Source: Spirogloea muscicola (Eukaryota; Streptophyta; Zygnematophyceae; Spirogloeales; Spirogloeaceae). From it: a DNA stretch of 42,389 nt. The stretch covers positions 1-42,389 of the forward strand of contig WELB01000190.1 in assembly GCA_009602725.1 (NCBI GenBank), written 5' to 3'. Each line of letters opens with the position of its first letter. Positions within the stretch are counted from its first letter, which is position 1. Shown here piece by piece: positions 1,088 through 30,100 of this stretch. The notes beneath the pieces are model-generated. The model searched no databases, was not told where the DNA came from, and saw only the letters and a list, made by a program, of their open reading frames with translations. Made by a program: the position numbers and the translations under genes.

Positions 1088-4000
1088 TCAGAGCGTATGC
1101 ATCTTCCTTAGGAGGTCTTCCAGCTCCGGAGGCAGAAGCCCTGAGCCAGTCCAGCCCAGCATCGGATTCATTGGTGTGCTCAAAGAGAATCCAGGTTGCT
1201 GGAAGCTTGCTGGAGATCTATCCAAGGCTGAGCCAGTGGTGAGCGGCGTAGCCGAGGGTGAGGTCTTGGAAGGGGGAGGAGGTACGGTCGGCAACGGCTC
1301 TGGAGTCAGGGCGGAAGTGGTGGCCCGGGGGAGGTGGTCGGCCAGGTGCCTTTGGCAGAGCACGCGCACCTTGCGATCCAGAATCTCATCATCCACCTGC
1401 CGCGCCATGTTCTGGTAGAATGCCTAGCAAAAACAGATGTGGATGCTTATTGCGATGATAAGGTGGTTGTGCAAGTACAGAATTGTTGATATATACTGCA
1501 TGATTGGGAGACTGCAGACATCAGGCATAAGGACGGATTGACTTTACCATGCATCAGCAATAATGAGCCACGGGGATTAGTCTAAGTCACCTGTGTGATC
1601 TCAATCGAGGCATGTTCATTCACTATCAATCATGTTTGCTGCATCAAGTTGCAATGCTGACCTGCAGCTTGGCGAGGTCCACTACAGAAGCAGCTCGCAA
1701 GCTCCTGGCCCAGTCTTCGAGCAGAGCAGGGCCTCCGTCCACTAGTTTGCTAAAGAGTGCTGATGACGAGGCGCCAGAAAGGTGGAGGGCAGCAATCAGG
1801 TTTTCATTCTTCAAACGAAATTTGCAAGCCATGCTATCCTCCTACTTTGCAGTCATCTGGACCCTGACAAGCAGATCCTGGAACCTTGCATGCTGCGATC
1901 CAAGGCAAGCTTTGCTGATCTCGGGTAGGAGGAAGAAATTGTCATCTAGCTACCGCTCAGACAGCCAAGGGAGCTCACCAGCCTGCATGGTCGCAAGCTG
2001 GCGCTGCTGCATGCTGAGATGCGAGCTGAGCTCTTCCAGCTCACGAGTCAGAGCAGCCACTGTCTTCTCCAGCCGCCCAGCATCTGCAGCCTGCACTCTC
2101 CCATACTGTCAGAGTGCATCAGTGAAGTCTTTTTGGATACACTGCAATACAGAGCAACATCTGGCCTGCTCTTTGCAACCTTGGTATTCCCAGGCTAGAG
2201 CCGATGTAGGGACTGTAACTTGCTAGTGTGGCAAAGCGAGTTCGTTATGCTCAACGCACTTGCCAGTGAGGCATTGCAGGAGCACTCTGTGCACACCAGA
2301 GTCTGCAGTGGCAGTCAGTACCTGTGCAGTGGGCGCGCTCTCTGGAGTCACCTCGTTCTGGACTGCCTCAGAAAAGTTTCTGAAAAAGTAATAAACAGAA
2401 GAGGATGAATTAATAGTGATGTGGTAGGCAGAATTCTTGTCAAGGTTACTGCTACAATAATTGTGACAACATTAAATCAAGTCAGGTCATTGCATCGACC
2501 TTGACAACAGCTATGCTTAGCCCATGTGACAGCTGCCTTCCAGTGTTGCAGCTTGTCAAGCTCAACAGTTGCCGTGCCATGCTGGTCAAACGTTAAGGAA
2601 AGCACCGATGCGTACAGGCAGCTTGCACCCGGTGGTGGCGGCCATGCCACGCGCTGCGGGAGATAGCTGTCTACGCAGGTCCCATTCCCCAGCTCGCCGC
2701 TCTGATTTCGGCCCCAGGCTAACAACGTCCTTCCCTGCAGCGTATACATGATGCAAGACATTGAACATACACTGTCTGTCTAAGTTGTTCAGTAAGTCAC
2801 ACAAGCCCTACTCTCAGTCACCTGATGGCTTCTGCAGAACGATGTCGTTTTGCTGAGGTAATTGCAAGAATGGCTGTGGACGTTTGAGGCTGCCAGATAC
2901 TCCTTCAAGTGCAGGGCTAGGCTTTCATCCAAAAGCTAGAGATCTCACCTCATCACAAACAGCCACAGTGTGCGCAGCGCCGCAGGTGATGCTCTGCACG
3001 GGCCCACAGTCATACGGCAATGGCACGCGGATCGGCACGAATGCCGGCCCGGCATCGGCCCCCGGAGGCCCCAAGTCCGGGCAGAGGCCTAGGCCACCTG
3101 CCATGCCCCAGGCAAAGACGGCGCCGCCGCCCACCACAACGCAGGAGTGGAAGAGACCGCAAGCCACAGCAGCAATTGATTCCTCCCTTGGCAGGCCTTG
3201 CACTTGCGTCGGCTGCGCTTGGCTGCACTCATAAGGTATCGAGGAGAAAGAGACTGTCACAGTAATGATGAAGCACCTCGTAAGTCTGCCGCTACTTCTA
3301 ATTTTATTGTGTGTTCACACGCACTGACACCCACACTTGCTAATCTGAGTCTTACCTTGCAGATGTTCCCAAGCCCAGCTGACCATCTGAGCCAAGGCCG
3401 AAGGTCCAGCACACAGAGCCCAGCGAGCTCCCTGCTGGCTGGGCCGCCGAGGCGTCCGGAGTACTGGGACCTGCGAGCAGGGTGTCTGCGGAGCTCTTGG
3501 CAGGGCCGGTCACCACCACGCTGTGAAAGGCGCCGCAAGCAAAGGTCACGACCTGGCCAACAGCAGGCGTGCACAGCTCCAACACACAATGGGGTATGCT
3601 CCGGAATGCAGTATCGCCCAAGCCCAGCTGGCCATGCTGGTTCGAGCCCCACGCATAGAGCTCCGCGGGCATTGCGCCATGCTTTCCATCTGTCAAACTG
3701 AGGTCAGCAGGGACCGCACAGCTGCGGAGGACCGCAATTGTGGCCAGCACGTGCTCGCTTCCACAAGCCACGGCCAGGACGGTAGTGCTGAGCGGAAGCC
3801 AGAGCCTCTTAGGGACCGTGAGTATCTGGAGCTCCTTGACTATCAGTGTCTTCTCCACACCATCGACAAGCTGTCTGCTGGCATCGGTGCGTGACAACAG
3901 TGCCTCTTGGTTGTCACAGGAAGTTGCTGTTTGCTCCCTGGTGCCGGCTCGACTGCTGTCCTCGGCTGCACTCTCTGCCTCCACGCCCGTGCGCTGACAG

Positions 4001-5375
4001 TGCAGGCTTCCCAAGGGTGGAGCATGGACAGGAGCAGGGCAGCGGCCCCATAACCAGAGGCCGCCATCAGCGTCGATGGCCGCGGACATCATACCTCCCG
4101 CCGCCACGGCCGCAATGTGCACGTCCTGGCCCGCCTCTGTAAATTGGACGGGTTTGGGTATGGAGTACGGCGAGTCCTGCTCGCCGCGCCCGAGCTGTCC
4201 ATCTGCACGACACCTACATCAAGGATTGACTCGCGAATGCAAACATGCCTGGCAGTTGATGAAACCTATCCTCGAATAAGTGCAGTGCAGACCTGACAAT
4301 CTAACTCAGAGCCAGGCTGTTCGATCATAGTACTATCTTGGCAAAAGGTGACCATGTTGCCTGATTTGAAACTGCACATATGCAGCTTATTTGAGCAGTG
4401 ATTGCCTGAGCAGCATGTCATTATCCAGTACTCCCAGACTGCAGGATACAGGCATCATAGCCCCAAGTCCACACCGTGCCTCGCCCTGCAAAGCGCGCCA
4501 GCAGAGGTCCTGGATTTATAGCAGTCAGACTGTCACACTGACACGCGCTGCCGCAAGTAGGTTACCAGTCGGTGATATGGAGCACAACGCTTGGAAAGGT
4601 AGCCTTTGGTTGAGATACAGCTGATGCTGGTCTCACCTATAATTGCAAAGGACAAGTGCTGTGGGTTGACAAAGGCTATGCAATCGCTGGTGTTCGTAGG
4701 GTGGCTGCTTGCCTGTCAGAGCGAGGCCGTGATATGCGCCTGCGGCCGCAGCGACGACGCACTCCTCCTCTGCAGCTTCCAGCCCTGCATTCAGAGCTCA
4801 GCGCGCCAGCCGCTGTCGCTGATTGTAGCAAGCCGGTGATGTTCAGGCCTTGCGAGCTACGTGCACAGGTCCCTCTGCTGGCTCAATCGCCGTTGCAGCT
4901 TTGAGGTTGTTGCCCGAGTGTTCACGAACCTTACAAACCTCACTGTAGCGTCAGGACCCGTATACATAGTTGGTGTGGAACTACGCACCTAATGGCAGTG
5001 GACTGACGGCAGGCGGCCGGCTGTCTGGCACTGAACTCCGTAGGCCGACTTGCAGCGGGAGCGCCGCGTCCTCCAAGACGCCCGTGCCGAGGCGACCAAA
5101 GCCGCCGCGGCCCCAGGCGGCCAGGCGGCCCTCATCTGCGGCCATCACGGGAGACGTGTGCCAGACCCGCTCGCCGCTTCTCGTCATCGCACATCCGAGG
5201 GCCAGCTCGAGGCCGCCAGCCGAAATGGCAGTTCACAGGCAAGCGGCGGCGGCCAGCGGCCGCGAAGGTGCCGCCAGGCCTTTGAGGAGCACTGATCAGC
5301 GCGGCGGAGCATCGTCTCACCTGTCACGACGAGCGTGTGCGCCTCGCCCGCGGCGGCGCAGCGCACGGCGGCCAT
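1088..5375 (-). CDS. RCC1-repeat protein with C-terminal coiled coil
   Basis: RCC1 repeats build a seven-bladed propeller used in guanine-nucleotide exchange or as a protein-binding platform. Exons (low..high, minus strand): 5321-5375 (start, MAAVRCAAAGEAHTLVVT), about 5037-5135, 4713-4769, 4432-4485, 3356-4202, 2949-3222, about 2600-2734, 2322-2379, 1979-2105, probably one near 1860-1910, 1662-1833 and 1088-1411. Repeat signatures include AAWGRGGFGRLGTG, VWTWGYD, WLWGRC, AWGSNQHGQLGLGD, FGLGSDGQLGLGT, FAWGMAGGLGL and AWGRNQSGELGNG. The exon at 1979-2105 is a heptad-like coiled coil (RLEKTVAALTRELEELSSHL). The last exon reads NMARQVDDEILDRK, then a Pro/Ser/Thr-rich stretch, and ends LLPPELEDLLRKMHTL. 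The large 3356-4202 exon has a roughly 90-residue insert between blades. The intron after 4713 looks GC-AG. The family is sure; the function of this member is not known. Boundaries near 2600, 1900 and 5037 are uncertain. Confidence 0.8.
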
Positions 5376-22187: not shown

Positions 22188-25100
22188 CTAAGGCAGGTCA
22201 TATGCATCCTCGTCCTCCTCGCTGCTGCTGCCAGCATGGTACGCAGATAGCCCCACCGCATGCGATGAATCTGAGGAGTTTGCATCGTCGCTCAGCCTTG
22301 CGCAGCGGTCATCATCATCATCTGTTGTGACCTCGCCGTCTGACTCGAACGTTTCTGCTGCCTCATCATCACTTGCCTCCTCCTCTGAGTAGACATATAG
22401 GGTGCGTATGTTGGCCGTGTCGAAGCCGTTAAAGCTCGACCCAGCGGCCTTCGTATATGCACCCATTCGAGGAAACACAAGCCAGTCGCCGCACTCAAGC
22501 TGCGGCAACCACACATCGCGTAGCACAGTGTCGAGGCCGTCGCATGTTGGCCCGAATATGGTGGACTTGATCTTGGGAGCAGGTGCAGCCGAGAGCACGG
22601 CAGCACACTGCAGGGGCCTGACTGTGAGCTCTGCATGGTCGTATAACAGGCAGTTCATTGAGCCGTATATGCCGTCGTTGATCCAGTACTCGGCAGAGCG
22701 AGCATGGGACCTGCCCCGCATGCGGCGGCCAAAAACTTGTGTTGCCAAAGTGACCGGTGCCTCTGCAAAGAAGCGACCTGGCTCTGCAATCACCTGCGAA
22801 GGCCAGAGAACGTGCTTTGTCAACAAATCAGGTAAGTGCTGAGAAAGCAAGCAAATCAAATGTCAAGAGACATTTCAACACATATACAAAGATACTGTAT
22901 ACAAACATTGCTGGCTTGCTCACCTTGACACCCATATCCTCGGGGAAGAACTTCTCAAGTGCTTCGTTTATTGCGGCGGCCGCGTTCTCAAAGCTTGCTC
23001 CATGGCCGCCAGCTGAGGTGAAGCCTCCGCCAATGTCCAGAATGGTCATCTTGGGAAGGCCCATGCTCTCCGCCATATCAAAGATGTCCTTGGCAGCAGC
23101 GATGGCGTCAAAGTACGAGCGACCATCAGATGCTCCCGAGCCGACATGGAAGGCGACCCCAGCAACATGCAGGCCGAGCGAGGCTGCCGCAGTGAGGAGC
23201 CCCTGGCATTCATCCAAGTCCGCCCCGTACTTTGTCCCCAGGGGACAGCGTGCATTCAGGTCGTCAGCCCGCAGGCGCAGCACAACGCGGGCGTCGGGGT
23301 AGATCTTCTTCAGCTTGTAGAGCTCGTCCTCGCTGTCAAATGTTGTCAGGCGTATGCCCCTGTCCCGAGCCTCCTCAATGTGGGAGGGGAGCTTGCAGGG
23401 GTTGGCGTAGATGATGTTGCCCTGCTGTACACCCAAAGCCATCACAGCTGCCATCTCTGCCTTGCTGGCGACATCAAAACCGGCACCCAGCGATGCTAAG
23501 ACGGCCAGGAGCGTAGCGTCCTGGTTGCACTTGACAGCGTAAAAGGGCTGCACGCGCGGCAGGGCCTCCTGCCACTGGTGATACAGGCGGACCAGCAGGC
23601 CAATGTCCAGCACGTAGAATGCATCCTCAGACTGGGTTGATTTCACGACGGCTCGAATGTACGAGTCCATGTCAGTCACGGTTGAGCCAATCGCATCAAA
23701 CTTAGCTTTACCTGCGAAGGTTACAAGACCACAAATGACGAGGTAAGTGTGGCCCAATGAGAAGTCAAAAGGCGGCATGCCAGACTGAGGCACGTAAACA
23801 AGAGAAGAGCGAATGACCACAACGAGTCTGTCACATGGGGAATGTGGACTGCATACTGCTTACACACGAAGTAGAAAAAAAAGGCTGACTGCATGGCGTA
23901 TAACTGTGTAACAAGGTAATATGATAACGAAATGCTCAAATAACAAGCAGGAGATATGAAGTCTAGCGCAAAGCTCAAAAGAAGCAGCGGCTTCATAACC
24001 ACCTATGCACAACACAGCATATCCCATGGACTTACCAAACGGCGCAGTAGGCTGTGGCGATGGCTTCATAGACAGTGGCTCTAGGAGGGCCAAGGACAGT
24101 GGCACACACTCTTGCCCTGCTTCCACTGACTTGCGCAGCTTGAAATTGTGGAAAACCAAGGCACTTCCACAAGGTAGATCTTGCCGGCTAGTCCCATCAC
24201 AAACATACGGCTCAGGGACAGGAACAGCTTTGGCCCAAGAGTCACCCTTGACTGTGGTACTGGAAAGGCCAGTGGCATGCAAGGCCACCGAGAAGCAGCC
24301 CGGCTTGAAAGTTTCAGCCACCTGCTTGACAAGTTCTCCCAGCTGCACATTCTCCGCATCGTACCCCTGGGTCTCGAAGCTAGCATAGCTGAAGGCTTCC
24401 TCGGGCGTGATGTGGATGGTTGAGTGAGACGCCTGCTCGATTGAGTTCATGGAGTACCCGCAGGGCTCGAAGCAGTAATCATTGATGTCTGATAGTGGGA
24501 GCAGGTCCCTAATCCCCGAGGCCTTGGTGAGTGCCGCCGGAGAGTCATAGCCTGCACCCTGGTAAAATTGGCTGGCCACTTTGCGGTCCAGCTTGGTCAT
24601 GCACATCTCCAAGGTGTACAGGGGCTTGCACGCTGCCGCCTGCTCAGCGCTGACCTCATAAACATGCCAGTTGGGAAACTGAAGTGTGTTTCCAAGCACA
24701 TATGATTGACCACCAGACCCCAAGTGGCCGAAGTGCTCCTCCAGCACCTTCACCTCCTCTGCAAAATTGCCTCCATGTGGCTGAGCCTCGGGAAAGTGGA
24801 AGGAGCCACGAGTATACTTGCATCGCATGGGCGCCATGCCCAAGTCCGCCGCACTCTCCAGCAGCAATGGGATGCTCTGCAGAAGCCGTGTGGTGCCGCA
24901 GGTCTTGACAATGACCCGCTGAGGGTAGATGAAGAGGCTGGACTCAGAAAGGACATACGAGTCCATGAGCTTGTTGGAGAGCTGCGAGACGATGGTGCAC
25001 TCAGCAGCCGCGAGGAAGCCATCGATGGCCGCGCGGGACAGCGCCCGCAGGCCGGCCTTGTTGTTGTTGCTCAAGAAGGGCGCAGGAGAAAACTCCACTT

Positions 25101-25197
25101 CCAACCGCTTCTCAAAGCCCTCAAAGCCGAAACAGGGTAGCGAGCATGGCGCATAAGCAGCGCCCCCCTCCACGTCCTGCTGTGGAAGGATCCCCAT
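22188..25197 (-). CDS. SAMDC-ODC: Bifunctional S-adenosylmethionine decarboxylase - ornithine decarboxylase (predicted fusion)
   Basis: AdoMetDC makes the aminopropyl donor for spermidine and spermine; ODC makes putrescine. Exons (low..high): 24036-25197, 22924-23711 and 22188-22793, total 2556 nt, 851 residues. The first exon encodes a whole plant-type AdoMet[14 protein letters not shown] with the two Glu (26, 29), SESSLFIY with the self-cleavage Ser (86), VIVKTCGTT with Cys 100, and [18 protein letters not shown]. It is intronless, as in land plants. It does not stop; it ends TAPF-G at a GT donor in phase 1. The next exon begins in the matching phase ([10 protein letters not shown]) and is [11 protein letters not shown] (pyridoxal-phosphate Lys), [25 protein letters not shown] (catalytic Cys) and FNGF. 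The C terminus is a Ser/Asp/Glu-rich tail. If the 324-base intron is retained, AdoMetDC reads about 59 further codons to a stop at 23860. A separate ODC starting near MDSYIRAV remains possible. uORFs lie upstream. Confidence 0.88.
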
Positions 25198-25297
25198 GTC
25201 TGGGGCAGCAAATGGAGGACCCCACAGGTGTGGGTGGGGGGGCGCCTAGGTATGCCCTCGGCACGTGAGCAAGAAGTTATACACCACTAGCTCGATA

Positions 25298-25833
25298 TCA
25301 GGATGGCTTGCGGACGCACTGCATAGTGAATGAAAACACGTTATAGTAAGAATATGACCAAGGCTCTGTCACTCAGCTTCTCCTGACTATGATTGCTCAG
25401 ACAAAAGCATCATGCGACAACACCACCCAGGCGTGCACAATAGCTTGTCAACTTGCAACAGTGGCAAGTCTTCACACTGACTCAAGAGCAAGAATATCAT
25501 GCAACGACATCAGATGCTAAAGTACAACGACATCAAATACTAAGTACGACCACTCCTAGGTGAGACACCTACAACAGCTGCTTCTCATGCTTCTCAACCA
25601 TCTCTTATCCATCTCTTATAACTGCTTATGCAGCAGCTAGTCATTTATATCAGCATACTCGAACAACATACATGCACAGGGGTGTAAGGACAGCTTACGT
25701 TGCTGTAAGCAGCCGATCGGAAGATGTCTACTCCTCCGTCAGGGCGAACGTCCTCAATGACGTACCCAAGAGGCAGCTCGTACTGCATGGGACTACTGCT
25801 ACTAGAGTCGTTCTCGCTTGACGCTGACTCCAT
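25298..25833 (-). CDS. Conserved small uORF of AdoMetDC (polyamine-responsive), split by an intron
   Basis: A 51-residue peptide in two exons: 25699-25833 and 25298-25318, joined in phase 0 by a GT-AG intron (25319-25698). It contains PLGYVIEDVRPDGG, then FRSAAYSN, and after the intron CVRKPS and stop. This closely matches the small uORF found in land-plant AdoMetDC leaders, which has a Ser-rich N terminus, PLGYSIEDVRP, FRSAAYSN and a KPS end. In plants this peptide stalls or limits ribosomes when spermidine or spermine is high and so lowers AdoMetDC synthesis. Here its stop is 100 bases before the main ATG at 25197, with no other ATG in between, so reinitiation would go to the AdoMetDC start. 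Confidence 0.93.
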
Positions 25834-25841
25834 TATGTCAT
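25833..25841 (-). promoter_or_regulatory. Tiny uORF overlapping the small uORF by one base
   Basis: ATG-ACA-TAA. The last A of TAA is the first A of the small-uORF ATG (TAATGG). Land-plant AdoMetDC leaders have the same layout: a two- or three-codon uORF overlapping the small uORF by one nucleotide. There it captures ribosomes at low polyamine and bypasses the repressive small uORF. Confidence 0.85.
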
Positions 25842-26541: not shown

Positions 26542-27116
26542 CGGCGGTCGATTTAAATGGGAGTGGGCAGTGCGGAAAAGCCTGGCCGGCAAGCGAGCGC
26601 GCGAGTCATCGGCGGGGCGGAGCCGTCGCGCGGCGTCGCACAGCGTCGCACGGCGGCGGGTCGCACGGCAGCTCGTCGTACGCGGCCGCCGCGGGCGCCG
26701 CGTGGCGGCGGCCCACACCCCCTTCCCGTCCAAGGAAGCGGCTGGAAAAAGCGCACCCCGCCGCCCGCAGCCCCCTTTCCCGCCGTCCGATGCATCGTAT
26801 CGACGACGAAGAACCCCGACGACATAGCACCCGTTGATGGTTACCAACTAGCGGCCAGTAAGGGGCCCTCCCCCCCCGCTTCTCACACGTGCTTCCTCGC
26901 CGTCCGATGCCGGCATCCGACGGGTCAGACCGCGAGGCCGTCTGGATTGACGCCCAGTCTTGCGGCCAGGAAGCTGTCCTGGGGGAGCCCACGTGGCCGC
27001 CTGGGAGGGAGGGCGGCGCTCAGGTAGCGGCCGAGGCCCGCCCGCTAACTTGTGCCGCTAAGTTGTTGCTAAAGCCGCCCCCGACAAGATAGCTAGCTTC
27101 ACGGCAGCTTGCGAGT

Positions 27117-27172
27117 GCCGTCGCCGCCGTCGCCGCCGTCGCCGCCGCCGCCGCCGCAGCCGCCGCCGCCAA
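27117..27172. repeat. CCG/TCG repeat tract
   Basis: Units of GCCGTC and GCC just 5' of the ANKZF1-type ATG at 27194, so within its 5' UTR. Confidence 0.85.
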
Positions 27173-27193
27173 GCGCTGCTCCGGTGGCCGGCT

Positions 27194-30100
27194 ATGGCGG
27201 CCGAGCCGCCGGCGCGGCCGCTGGCGCCGGGCCCAGACAGCATCTTCCGCCTCCCCGCGGGGTTCTTCAACGGCGCGGATCTCTGGCGGAACGAGCAGGC
27301 ATCGCCATCGCCGCCTGCAGCGCCGTCGGGAGAGGAAGTAGCGGCGCCTCCTCCGGCGCCGCCGCCCGAGGACGTCGCCGCCGCGGGCTTCGCCACCGCC
27401 GTCGGCGGCGGCTCCGAGGAAGCCCCGCCGTCTGCGCAGCGGCTGACCTGCCACGCCTGCGGGGCAGCCTTCGCCGCCGCCGCGGAGCAGCGCGCGCACT
27501 TCCGCACCGATTGGCACCGCCTCAACGTGAGCTGCCCTTGGCCTCACCGCGCCGCCATTCTTGGTGTCACTGCGCCCGCCAGCCCTGTGCCGCTGGCCGG
27601 TTGCCAGAGACGCCCTCTAGAACCGAAGCTGTGGGGTTTGGTCGGTCACACTGTCCCTGTCAAAGGTGGCAGATCGCTCAGCTCAGTGTCATCGAAAGAG
27701 AGGCCCCTCATGACCTCATTGCAGTCCACTAGTCGCTGGTGACAGCAATTGTGTCAAGACATGCTTCACACGGAGATCCTCAGCTGGCGATGTTCCTCAA
27801 CTAAACTTGGTGCCAAACTGAAGCAGAGTACTACTACTAAGAACCAGGGAGCATAGAGCAGGGAGAGGCTTGATGCTTCACGCTCTAGGCTTTGGCGTGA
27901 TCGATTTCTGGCCTTCTGATCTGTGCAATTTGCTAGTAAAGAGTCAGGGCTTTGAGGGTTTAGGTTAACTTTAGGCTTTGGCTTATTGTCGTTTCCGGCG
28001 CTGCTGCACTTGATGCAGGTCAAGCGCCGGCTGGCGCAGAAGCGGCCTCTGTCAGAGGACGAGTTCGAGGAGCTCGTCTCACACGCTGCGGCAAAGCGGC
28101 CAGCAGGTTTGGACAACAGCGACGTCTCCAGCATCTCGGGCTCGGAAGACGAGCTGTCAGGCGACGAGGCCCAAGACGGCATGGGCGTGGCGCCCACCAG
28201 CTCCAAGAAGCCGCACGTCTTCTTCGTGCTGCGCAACTCCGGACAGCCCTTTGCTATCTCTCGTGTCTTGCTCGCGGGTGAGCGTGGCCAGTTGTGCTAG
28301 ACTGCAGCTCTGACCTGCGAGCATCTGTATTACTTTCGAGCCTGCTGTCTGAGCTAGAGTCTCATTACCTCAAAGTAGACTCTGGTTCCTGGCCTCCAAT
28401 CGTGCATACGAACCCTTACTTCGGTCTTATTTGATGTGATGCTTTTTGATGCCAGTCATCTTTCGCTCACTCCAATACAAGTCCAGTTTCAGTTGATGTT
28501 CTGCTCATTCCGAGTGCTCAACAAGCCTGTAGATTCCTTCAATGCCCGTATATACTCCTCGTCCAGTGCATTGGTTCTTTTGAAGTGACCAGCCGCATGG
28601 TGCGCAGGGCCCAAGGAGGATGTGACGGAGGAGGAAATGCTGAAGAGGTTGCGCTTGCTCACGGACAGCACGAAAGCTGGTGGGAATGCAAGCGGCCGCC
28701 TTTGGACTGTGCTTCTATCTACCGGTGGTCACTTCGCAGCCGTCGTCATGGACCCTGCTGGCGGTGGAGTGGTTGCGCATCAGACATTCCACCGGTTCGT
28801 GCTCGGCCACAATGACACCACGCCAGGTCACTGCGGTGGTAGCCTAGGTGAGGGCCTGCATGTGCAACATCTCTTCAGCACAAAGACGTGGGAAAGTCTT
28901 GGTATGGGCATTGTGGTTTGTTGACTTAAGAAGCACACTTCTGAATTTGAGCAACTGGCATAGATAGTAATGGTTCAGGGTTGTGGCGTAACGTGCTTTG
29001 TCTTACTCAGCACTCTCAGTTCTAGTGGGTCAGCAGAGTATGGGGGTTGAGTTTTCTGAGGTCACACACTTTTATTCTGAAGACTGTTGTCTTACCGTTC
29101 CAATTGTGTTGGACTTGAAGTATCATTATTGAGAATATTGATCAACTCCGACTTCATGCATCTATTAAGGTCTGCATGCTTTGCAGCGGCAGGTACATTT
29201 AGTCTCTGCTGCATGTTTAAGTGAGGTCCCTGGTGGAGCTAATCCCCTACAGCCTGTCCAGCGCTGCAAAGGAGGTTCTCTTATACTGTCAGAGCAGTCA
29301 TGAGGAGTGCCCTTTGCTATTGATGTCTCTATCAGATACGTTGTGCGAGCAAAGGCTGGAGGTCGACAATCAGCCAAGGACGCCATGGGGAAATCCATCA
29401 AGTCAGCAGGATCTTCCTTGCGTCGCTACAATGAAGCTGCTCTGGAGAAGGTTGTTTATTTTCCCATCTCTAGATACTTCTCACAACCAGGAATACTTCC
29501 TTCAGACGATTGGAACAGTCAAAGGCAGCTTCTTGACCTCACACTGTATCACTGTGTATTACACTGAATCTCTTTGTTGTCGTGCCATGGCACGTTCTCA
29601 TTTGGACCCAAGATTTGTGCTTTTCGATCTTGTGCAAGCCAGGGTAGCTATTGTCTTACTATTATGTTAACTTGTTACATACTAACAAACTTCTACTCAC
29701 CGCTGCCTCTTTGACAGGAAATACTGGAACTCTTGGACTCGTGGCAGGCACACTTGACTGCATCGATGCTCATCTTCGTGCACGCTCCCTCGTCCAATGC
29801 CCGCGTGCTCTTCGGTGGCGATAGGCCGCCACTGGCCAAAGCTGACCCGCGCCTGAGGCCCGTGCCGTTCACTGTCCGGAGGCCCACCTTGAAGGAGGCC
29901 AAGAGGGTCGCAGAGGCCCTCGCTAGGGTGGAGTACGACGTGGACGGCCTGGCAGCTCTTGACAGAGAGAGGCATAGCGCTGATGCTTACGCCAGGGCTG
30001 CTCTTGCCGGGAGGGCGGAGCAGCTAAAGCAAGCGCTGCGCAAATCGAGAGTGCGGGACCAGGGCCAGGCTGTCAATGCAGCGGCTCCTTCCACTGCTGC

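Follow-up and report, generated by a model that had tools for sequence, protein, structure and literature searches.

The window analyzed here, the entire 42,389-nucleotide contig WELB01000190.1 (C190) of the zygnematophycean alga Spirogloea muscicola (assembly GCA_009602725.1), carries on its minus strand a gene that joins a plant-type S-adenosylmethionine decarboxylase (AdoMetDC) to an ornithine decarboxylase (ODC) in one open reading frame (ORF). A pair of upstream ORFs (uORFs) precedes the main ORF. Very probably, this gene encodes both enzymes as a single bifunctional polypeptide, descends from a fusion ancestral to green plants, and is under leader-uORF control.

The 851-amino acid (aa) AdoMetDC-ODC translation is assembled from three coding sequence (CDS) exons (Table 1) and contains no internal stops. 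Both coding introns are of the GT-AG type, and the frame is kept across all three exons, from the start ATG at 25197 to the TAG that closes the third exon. The AdoMetDC exon ends in ...CCG TTT G at 24036, followed by the donor GTAAGT of a phase 1 intron; the acceptor of this join intron (...CTTCGCAG, last base 23712) leads into the ODC-side exon, which starts with GT AAA GCT AAG at 23711. After splicing, the junction codons read TTT-GGT-AAA, with no stop. The in-frame phase 1 join (TTT-G / GT-AAA) had been described in the original prediction, and every coordinate given for it proved correct; the third exon, not spelled out there, completes the ODC.

The AdoMetDC half matches PF01536 over profile positions 3–343 of 343 (residues 24–353, E = 4e-100, 335.6 bits), and the ODC half matches PF02784 (residues 427–660, E = 2e-74) and PF00278 (residues 662–761, E = 5e-19). 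The C10 copy of the gene (see below) also matches TIGR00535, with 309 bits against a cutoff of 233. The key residues of both enzymes are present in the window copy, as had been claimed: all six self-cleavage and catalytic residues of AdoMetDC (which we take to correspond to E8, E11, S68, C82, S229, and H243 of the human enzyme) and the ODC catalytic set K448, H576, E654, D702, C734, and D735 (presumably the equivalents of mouse K69, H197, E274, D332, C360, and D361). Cleavage at E85|S86 would convert the predicted 91.9-kDa precursor into products of 9.1 and 82.8 kDa. The fusion gene is real and, judged by conservation, functional, and the complete residue sets of both halves suggest that each is an active enzyme. 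The ODC domain is followed by a C-terminal tail (residues 771–851; 22188–22433) that is acidic and serine rich, with 25 D/E in 81 residues. This tail is present in all three genome copies and, by eye, in several streptophyte fusions; perhaps it is a degradation signal.

The S. muscicola assembly (153 Mb, 471 contigs) contains three AdoMetDC loci that coincide with three strong ODC loci, on C190, C10, and C141. Exon number (three), splice positions, and phase are identical across these copies, which share ~85% identity in the longest aligned blocks and 76–85% in most of the shorter flanking blocks. The public gene model SM000010S04380 (EukProt; P0001), at s10:1240998-1244014, is identical to our model of the C10 copy, with coordinates equal to the base. 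Given the same exons, splice positions, and phase in C10 and C141 and this identical public model, the in-frame join is not due to chance. The presence of three copies agrees with the genome triplication reported for S. muscicola in passages of PMC7994812. The pairwise ratio of nonsynonymous to synonymous divergence (dN/dS) between the copies is 0.069–0.118 for AdoMetDC, 0.048–0.060 for ODC, and 0.27–0.75 for the linker. Synonymous divergence in the AdoMetDC domain (dS 0.17–0.25) is about half that in the ODC domain (0.40–0.41), which could reflect gene conversion or silent-site constraint.

Of the 8000 candidates scored with the whole fused protein as the query, 572 matched with E ≤ 1e-3, and 120 of these matches were listed. 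AdoMetDC precedes ODC in 119 of the 120 listed matches, P0001 of S. muscicola included; the exception, P0103, is an 853-aa protein in which two ODC units stand in tandem. The reverse domain order, ODC-AdoMetDC, was rejected as an arrangement, being found in none of the 122 two-domain sequences retrieved. Of 120 sequences examined (the window protein and the 119 listed fused proteins), 117 have all six ODC core residues and 103 have all six AdoMetDC residues, the misses being mostly N-terminal gaps. Listed chlorophyte fusions come from Micractinium, Trebouxia, Elliptochloris, Bryopsis, Nannochloris, Myrmecia, Cymbomonas, Tetraselmis, Coccomyxa, Auxenochlorella, and Apatococcus and from an MMETSP record with a name beginning “Nep” (presumably Nephroselmis). 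Those of streptophyte algae come from Klebsormidium, Closterium, and the JGI codes Mesen1, Chlat1, and Mesvir1 (which we take to be Mesotaenium, Chlorokybus, and Mesostigma, respectively), and those of land plants from Marchantia, Riccia, Calypogeia, Selaginella, Adiantum, and Ceratopteris.

The search for the same join in related algae that the original prediction had suggested thus found it in many chlorophytes and streptophyte algae. The accompanying claim that this organism made its own fusion does not survive: such an event in S. muscicola alone, for which the sequence itself and nothing further speaks, has practically no probability left and is refuted by the same fusion in chlorophytes, streptophyte algae, liverworts, Selaginella, and ferns. 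The statement that each enzyme has its own gene in land plants fails for the listed liverworts, Selaginella, and ferns, all fused; the seed-plant sequences in the ODC search were ODC alone. Viral carriage of the fusion was not detected in a protein scan of viral contigs or a DNA search of phage records; phage proteins were not searched.

The locus could also be read as two adjacent, separately transcribed genes, with AdoMetDC ending inside the 324-base intron (by polyadenylation or read-through), ODC driven by its own promoter, and the join being coincidental or a minor isoform. When read on into the join intron, the AdoMetDC frame indeed stops there, yielding a 445-aa AdoMetDC-only ORF, and exon B has an in-frame ATG (residue 402) before the ODC domain in all three copies; a separate ODC product starting from this ATG is conceivable. 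Moreover, the S. muscicola gene is known here from genomic sequence alone. However, the read-through tails vary in length and sequence among the three copies whereas splice positions and phase are constant, methionine occupies the residue-402 column in just 9 of the 60 aligned fused proteins, and the public model of the C10 copy is fused. In addition, 17 of the 120 listed matches derive, by name or source, from transcript assemblies (TRINITY, MMETSP, and c_g_i), which indicates that spliced fused mRNAs exist in relatives. We consider separate transcription very unlikely. A mere mis-joining of two genes is rejected on the basis of the three-copy splice conservation, the fused relatives, and the fused public model of C10.

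Beyond the three fusions, an exon-by-exon search of the genome, which may miss genes with short exons, found no locus for either enzyme, so the fusion is the sole source of AdoMetDC and ODC detected. A query with the stand-alone ODC of Sphagnum recovered six exons only, two per fusion gene. The other six PF02784 exon matches fall into three loci, on C153, C20, and C96. Four of these six pieces, at least one from each locus, were compared with solved structures, leaving aside one C20 piece and the C153 piece that contains an internal stop; all four have a plant chloroplast diaminopimelate decarboxylase as the best match (E = 9e-24 to 5e-28), and none matched an ODC chain. An NCBIfam scan of the C96 pieces does not discriminate between ODC and diaminopimelate decarboxylase, since the lysA model is the best match of true ODCs as well. 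Exons resembling agmatine deiminase, at C46:268732-269969 and C47:320667-322376, suggest that part of the arginine route to putrescine is present in the genome. A search for antizyme returned no match, and neither did its controls.

The fused ODC half might instead act as a non-catalytic regulator of AdoMetDC, similar to the trypanosome prozyme, which activates its partner. The Mesostigma fusion P0097, which lacks the ODC cysteine, with a stand-alone ODC (P0171) under the same JGI code, fits this idea, but the six core residues are complete in the window copy and in 116 of the 119 listed fused relatives, and no ODC loci other than the fusions were detected in S. muscicola. A regulatory, prozyme-like role is hence highly improbable, and a catalytic ODC half is the preferred reading. 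In P0097, the cysteine equivalent to mouse C360 is replaced by glycine (GPTCDG reads GPSGDG); P0171 retains the cysteine and branches with P0097, which is possibly a case of a fused ODC half losing catalysis.

The original prediction made no mention of a leader, yet a tiny and a small uORF occupy positions 25841–25298. The spliced peptide of the small uORF matches the AdoMetDC leader family PF08132 over positions 1–51 of 51 (E = 7e-25). In all three copies, the last base of the tiny uORF is the first base of the small uORF, and all three retain the tiny uORF (with ACC in place of ACA in one copy), the uORF intron, and the ATG-free spacer. A PF08132 search of the genome identified three loci, each located upstream of one fusion. 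In three gene models from other species (P0032, P0035, and P0045), the annotation joined the leader onto the fusion protein, which links leader and fusion beyond S. muscicola. For Arabidopsis SAMDC1 and SAMDC2, passages of PMC5745906 describe the tiny/small overlap, uORF introns, and polyamine-dependent uORF translation. Passages of PMC2075485 report that an AdoMetDC uORF peptide (from an organism unnamed there) interferes with termination in a polyamine-dependent manner and trace the AdoMetDC leader as far as Ulva and Chlamydomonas. By analogy with these systems, the uORF pair is most likely the regulatory point of the gene, and a single polyamine-sensing switch would probably set both enzymes.

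Table 1. Positions of the parts of the AdoMetDC-ODC gene and its leader in the window (PLP, pyridoxal phosphate)
Feature	Positions	Strand	Basis or remark
Tiny uORF, ATG ACA TAA	25833..25841	-	Layout as described for Arabidopsis SAMDC1 and 2 in passages of PMC5745906
Small uORF exon 1, with 45 of the 51 AdoMetDC leader codons	25699..25833	-	Sequence
Small-uORF intron, GTAAGC...TGCAG	25319..25698	-	Splice sites
Small uORF exon 2, CVRKPS and stop	25298..25318	-	Spliced peptide matches PF08132
ATG-free spacer, 100 nt, from uORF stop to main ATG	25198..25297	-	100 nt in 3 of 3 copies
CDS exon A, AdoMetDC half and start of linker, phase 1 end	24036..25197	-	PF01536 at residues 24–353, 24139–25128
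Proenzyme cleavage site E85/S86, motif LSE/SS	24940–24942 (Ser86 codon)	-	Within exon A
Join intron between AdoMetDC and ODC, 324 bases, GTAAGT...CGCAG	23712..24035	-	Read-through tail differs among the three copies
CDS exon B, rest of linker and N-terminal PLP-binding domain of ODC	22924..23711	-	K448, H576, GGGF at 615
In-frame ATG, residue 402, ahead of the ODC domain	23670–23668	-	In exon B
Second coding intron, inside the ODC domain, GTGAGC...CGCAG	22794..22923	-	Splice sites
CDS exon C, C-terminal part of ODC and acidic C-terminal tail, stop TAG	22188..22793	-	E654, D702, C734, D735

The ODC tree included 78 hand-chosen sequences, namely, 43 fused (the window and 42 of the 119 listed fused proteins), 32 stand-alone (of the 117 ODC-only proteins), and 3 outgroup sequences. 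P0103 was dropped from the trees and the fusion counts, the long bacterial sequence L031 from a second ODC tree, and L032 from both. The green sequences form groups corresponding to chlorophytes, Mesostigma/Chlorokybus, and the remaining streptophytes. Among the latter, a clade of stand-alone ODCs unites Klebsormidium, one Closterium sequence, Sphagnum, Huperzia-type lycophytes, gymnosperms, angiosperms, and some unlabeled sequences. Its sister clade consists of 21 fused and 4 stand-alone sequences and includes the window, other zygnematophytes, liverworts, Selaginella, and ferns. Support for the branch that joins the two sets is 93/97 with L031 and 98/98 without it, and the main split is the same in both trees. 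In the AdoMetDC tree (45 sequences, backbone unresolved), the potato enzyme lies within the fern fusions (99/93). The window sequence has no resolved position among streptophytes there, its nearest neighbors being Mesotaenium and other fused sequences; in both the ODC and the AdoMetDC tree, it groups with other green fusions.

These topologies suggest that the fusion is most likely ancestral to green plants, having arisen on their stem, and was vertically inherited. Whichever way the tree is rooted, the chlorophyte/streptophyte split sets a minimum age for the fusion, repeated origins excepted. Repeated, independent fusion of AdoMetDC with ODC in green lineages (and in Plasmodium), favored by a useful 1:1 supply, would agree with the scatter of stand-alone ODCs through the ODC tree and with the one-reading-frame fusion reported for Plasmodium in passages of PMC5004602. 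Nevertheless, the fused ODCs of chlorophytes, Mesostigma/Chlorokybus, and streptophytes all belong to the green part of the ODC tree, separated from two outgroup sequences with 100/100 support (a weak test, with other eukaryotes unsampled), and AdoMetDC comes first in all 119 listed fused proteins. Furthermore, the AdoMetDC tree, its unresolved backbone aside, repeats the embryophyte and Mesostigma/Chlorokybus groups of the ODC tree and also two trebouxiophyte groups, except for P0117. We regard repeated fusion as unlikely and retain the single ancestral origin.

Under this single origin, the simplest joint reading is that a stand-alone ODC paralog existed by the time of the streptophyte ancestor shared by Klebsormidium and land plants. 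The separate clade of stand-alone seed-plant ODCs, combined with the position of the potato AdoMetDC inside the fern fusions, suggests that the ODC half disappeared from the fused gene in seed plants. We favor a fission scenario in which seed plants would have retained the stand-alone ODC and cut the fused gene to AdoMetDC. With modest confidence, we lean toward the broader proposal that the ancestral polyamine pathway of green plants was a single gene, with one uORF switch and one polypeptide producing both putrescine and decarboxylated AdoMet. The AdoMetDC of seed plants, with its leader, would then be a truncated remnant, decoupled after the older stand-alone ODC took over, which would have made ODC dispensable in, for example, Arabidopsis.

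Several observations weigh against the interpretation of the gene as an inherited, uORF-controlled bifunctional fusion, in addition to the residue-402 ATG and the purely genomic record discussed above. The approximately unbiased (AU) test gave p = 0.266 for the stand-alone clade splitting before the fusion, so that this alternative is not rejected, and the ODC trees require 9–10 changes between the fused and stand-alone states, although several stand-alone sequences may be partial (cut) gene models. The trees sample non-green eukaryotes with a single ODC (7odc) and a single AdoMetDC (1msv), and the only stand-alone AdoMetDC placed is the potato alpha chain. The function of the uORFs is assigned by analogy only. 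Finally, the fusion is not universal: a review table in PMC6356823 lists ODC and SAMDC under separate accessions in Chlamydomonas, Volvox, and Bathycoccus. The same table lists different accessions for the two enzymes in two red algae, no SAMDC for Chlorella variabilis, and XP_003057072.1 as both the ODC and the SAMDC of Micromonas pusilla, with no remark on it found.

Whereas the structure of the gene, its conservation and distribution, the complete residue sets, and the uORF arrangement are seen directly, we infer single-mRNA transcription in S. muscicola, both enzyme activities, the response of the uORFs, dimerization, and the evolutionary sequence as follows. One spliced mRNA would carry the tiny uORF overlapping the 51-codon leader uORF and, downstream, the single main ORF. 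At high polyamine levels, the small-uORF peptide would disturb its own termination and thereby reduce reading of the main ORF from 25197, which would be read when polyamines are low. Because ODC is fused downstream of one switch, the synthesis of putrescine and that of the aminopropyl donor would be raised and lowered jointly, at 1:1. Self-cleavage of the AdoMetDC part at E85|S86 is predicted to yield a beta chain of 9 kDa and an alpha-ODC chain of 83 kDa, with Ser86 of the latter becoming the pyruvoyl cofactor. ODC works as a dimer, and two alpha-ODC units would be expected to pair through ODC dimerization. In streptophytes, the stand-alone ODC paralog would have arisen and been kept by seed plants while the fused gene shed its ODC half.

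The known counterpart is the bifunctional AdoMetDC/ODC of Plasmodium, reportedly described by Muller in 2000, in which AdoMetDC also comes first and which, with parasite inserts, spans ~1,400 aa. The S. muscicola gene resembles it in holding both enzymes in a single ORF but differs in its plant-type AdoMetDC, plant leader uORFs, length of 851 aa, and only ~73 residues between the Pfam domains. One search aimed at Plasmodium returned three sequences, none labeled Plasmodium; P0240 and P0242 are fused, and P0241 is an AdoMetDC with unrelated domains. The stand-alone ODCs of seed plants, Sphagnum, and Huperzia-type lycophytes share the domains and residues of the window ODC half (47–60% identity for the listed sequences) but are unfused and form their own clade, sister to the streptophyte fused ODCs. 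In Arabidopsis, the SAMDC main ORFs code for AdoMetDC alone. Like the plant SAMDC genes described in passages of PMC5745906 and PMC2075485 (CPuORF group 3), the S. muscicola gene has a PF08132 leader, a one-base uORF overlap, a uORF intron, and a single-exon AdoMetDC domain; whereas the Arabidopsis SAMDC main ORFs are described as intronless (PMC5745906), the main ORF of S. muscicola extends across an intron into ODC. Bacterial and diatom AdoMetDC-aminopropyltransferase fusions, as presented in passages of PMC12803844 and PMC6356823, are likewise polyamine-pathway fusions with AdoMetDC, but the partner is an aminopropyltransferase, the bacterial AdoMetDCs belong to class 1b, and consecutive steps are joined rather than two supply branches.

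The titles, abstract openings, and passages of the open-licence PMC literature searched yielded no description of a green AdoMetDC-ODC fusion, although an earlier description is possible; the sole AdoMetDC-ODC fusion found described in this literature is that of Plasmodium (passages of PMC5004602; also the listing of PMC4816425). Public records do hold the fused proteins, under enzyme names that, where given, state one half only: Marchantia P0007 is labeled “S-adenosylmethionine decarboxylase” and Klebsormidium P0012 “Ornithine decarboxylase-like,” and both sequences contain both halves. The Trebouxia and Cymbomonas fusions P0044, P0057, and P0075 bear the name “Mitochondrial 2-oxoadipate and 2-oxoglutarate transporter” (incomplete in P0075), apparently a spread annotation error. 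If the proposed reading is correct, it offers a new starting point for plant polyamine biology: two control points regarded as distinct genes in seed plants would fall within a single gene in many green algae, liverworts, Selaginella, and ferns, with both enzymes under one uORF switch where the leader is seen. The decoupling in seed plants and the loss of ODC in Arabidopsis become testable evolutionary questions, for example, in Marchantia, and the green fusions provide a second, non-parasite case for asking what benefit an AdoMetDC-ODC fusion confers.

Scans of the window for tRNAs and Rfam families gave no matches. A divergent ORF on the plus strand (27194–27742) contains a C2H2-like zinc-finger stretch (CHACGAAF...HFRTDWH) and is reminiscent of ANKZF1/VMS1 proteins; a Pfam scan of the corresponding plus-strand frame 27062–27739 gave no match. 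On the minus strand, the exon at 3355–4218 encodes RCC1 repeats (PF00415, E = 4e-24).

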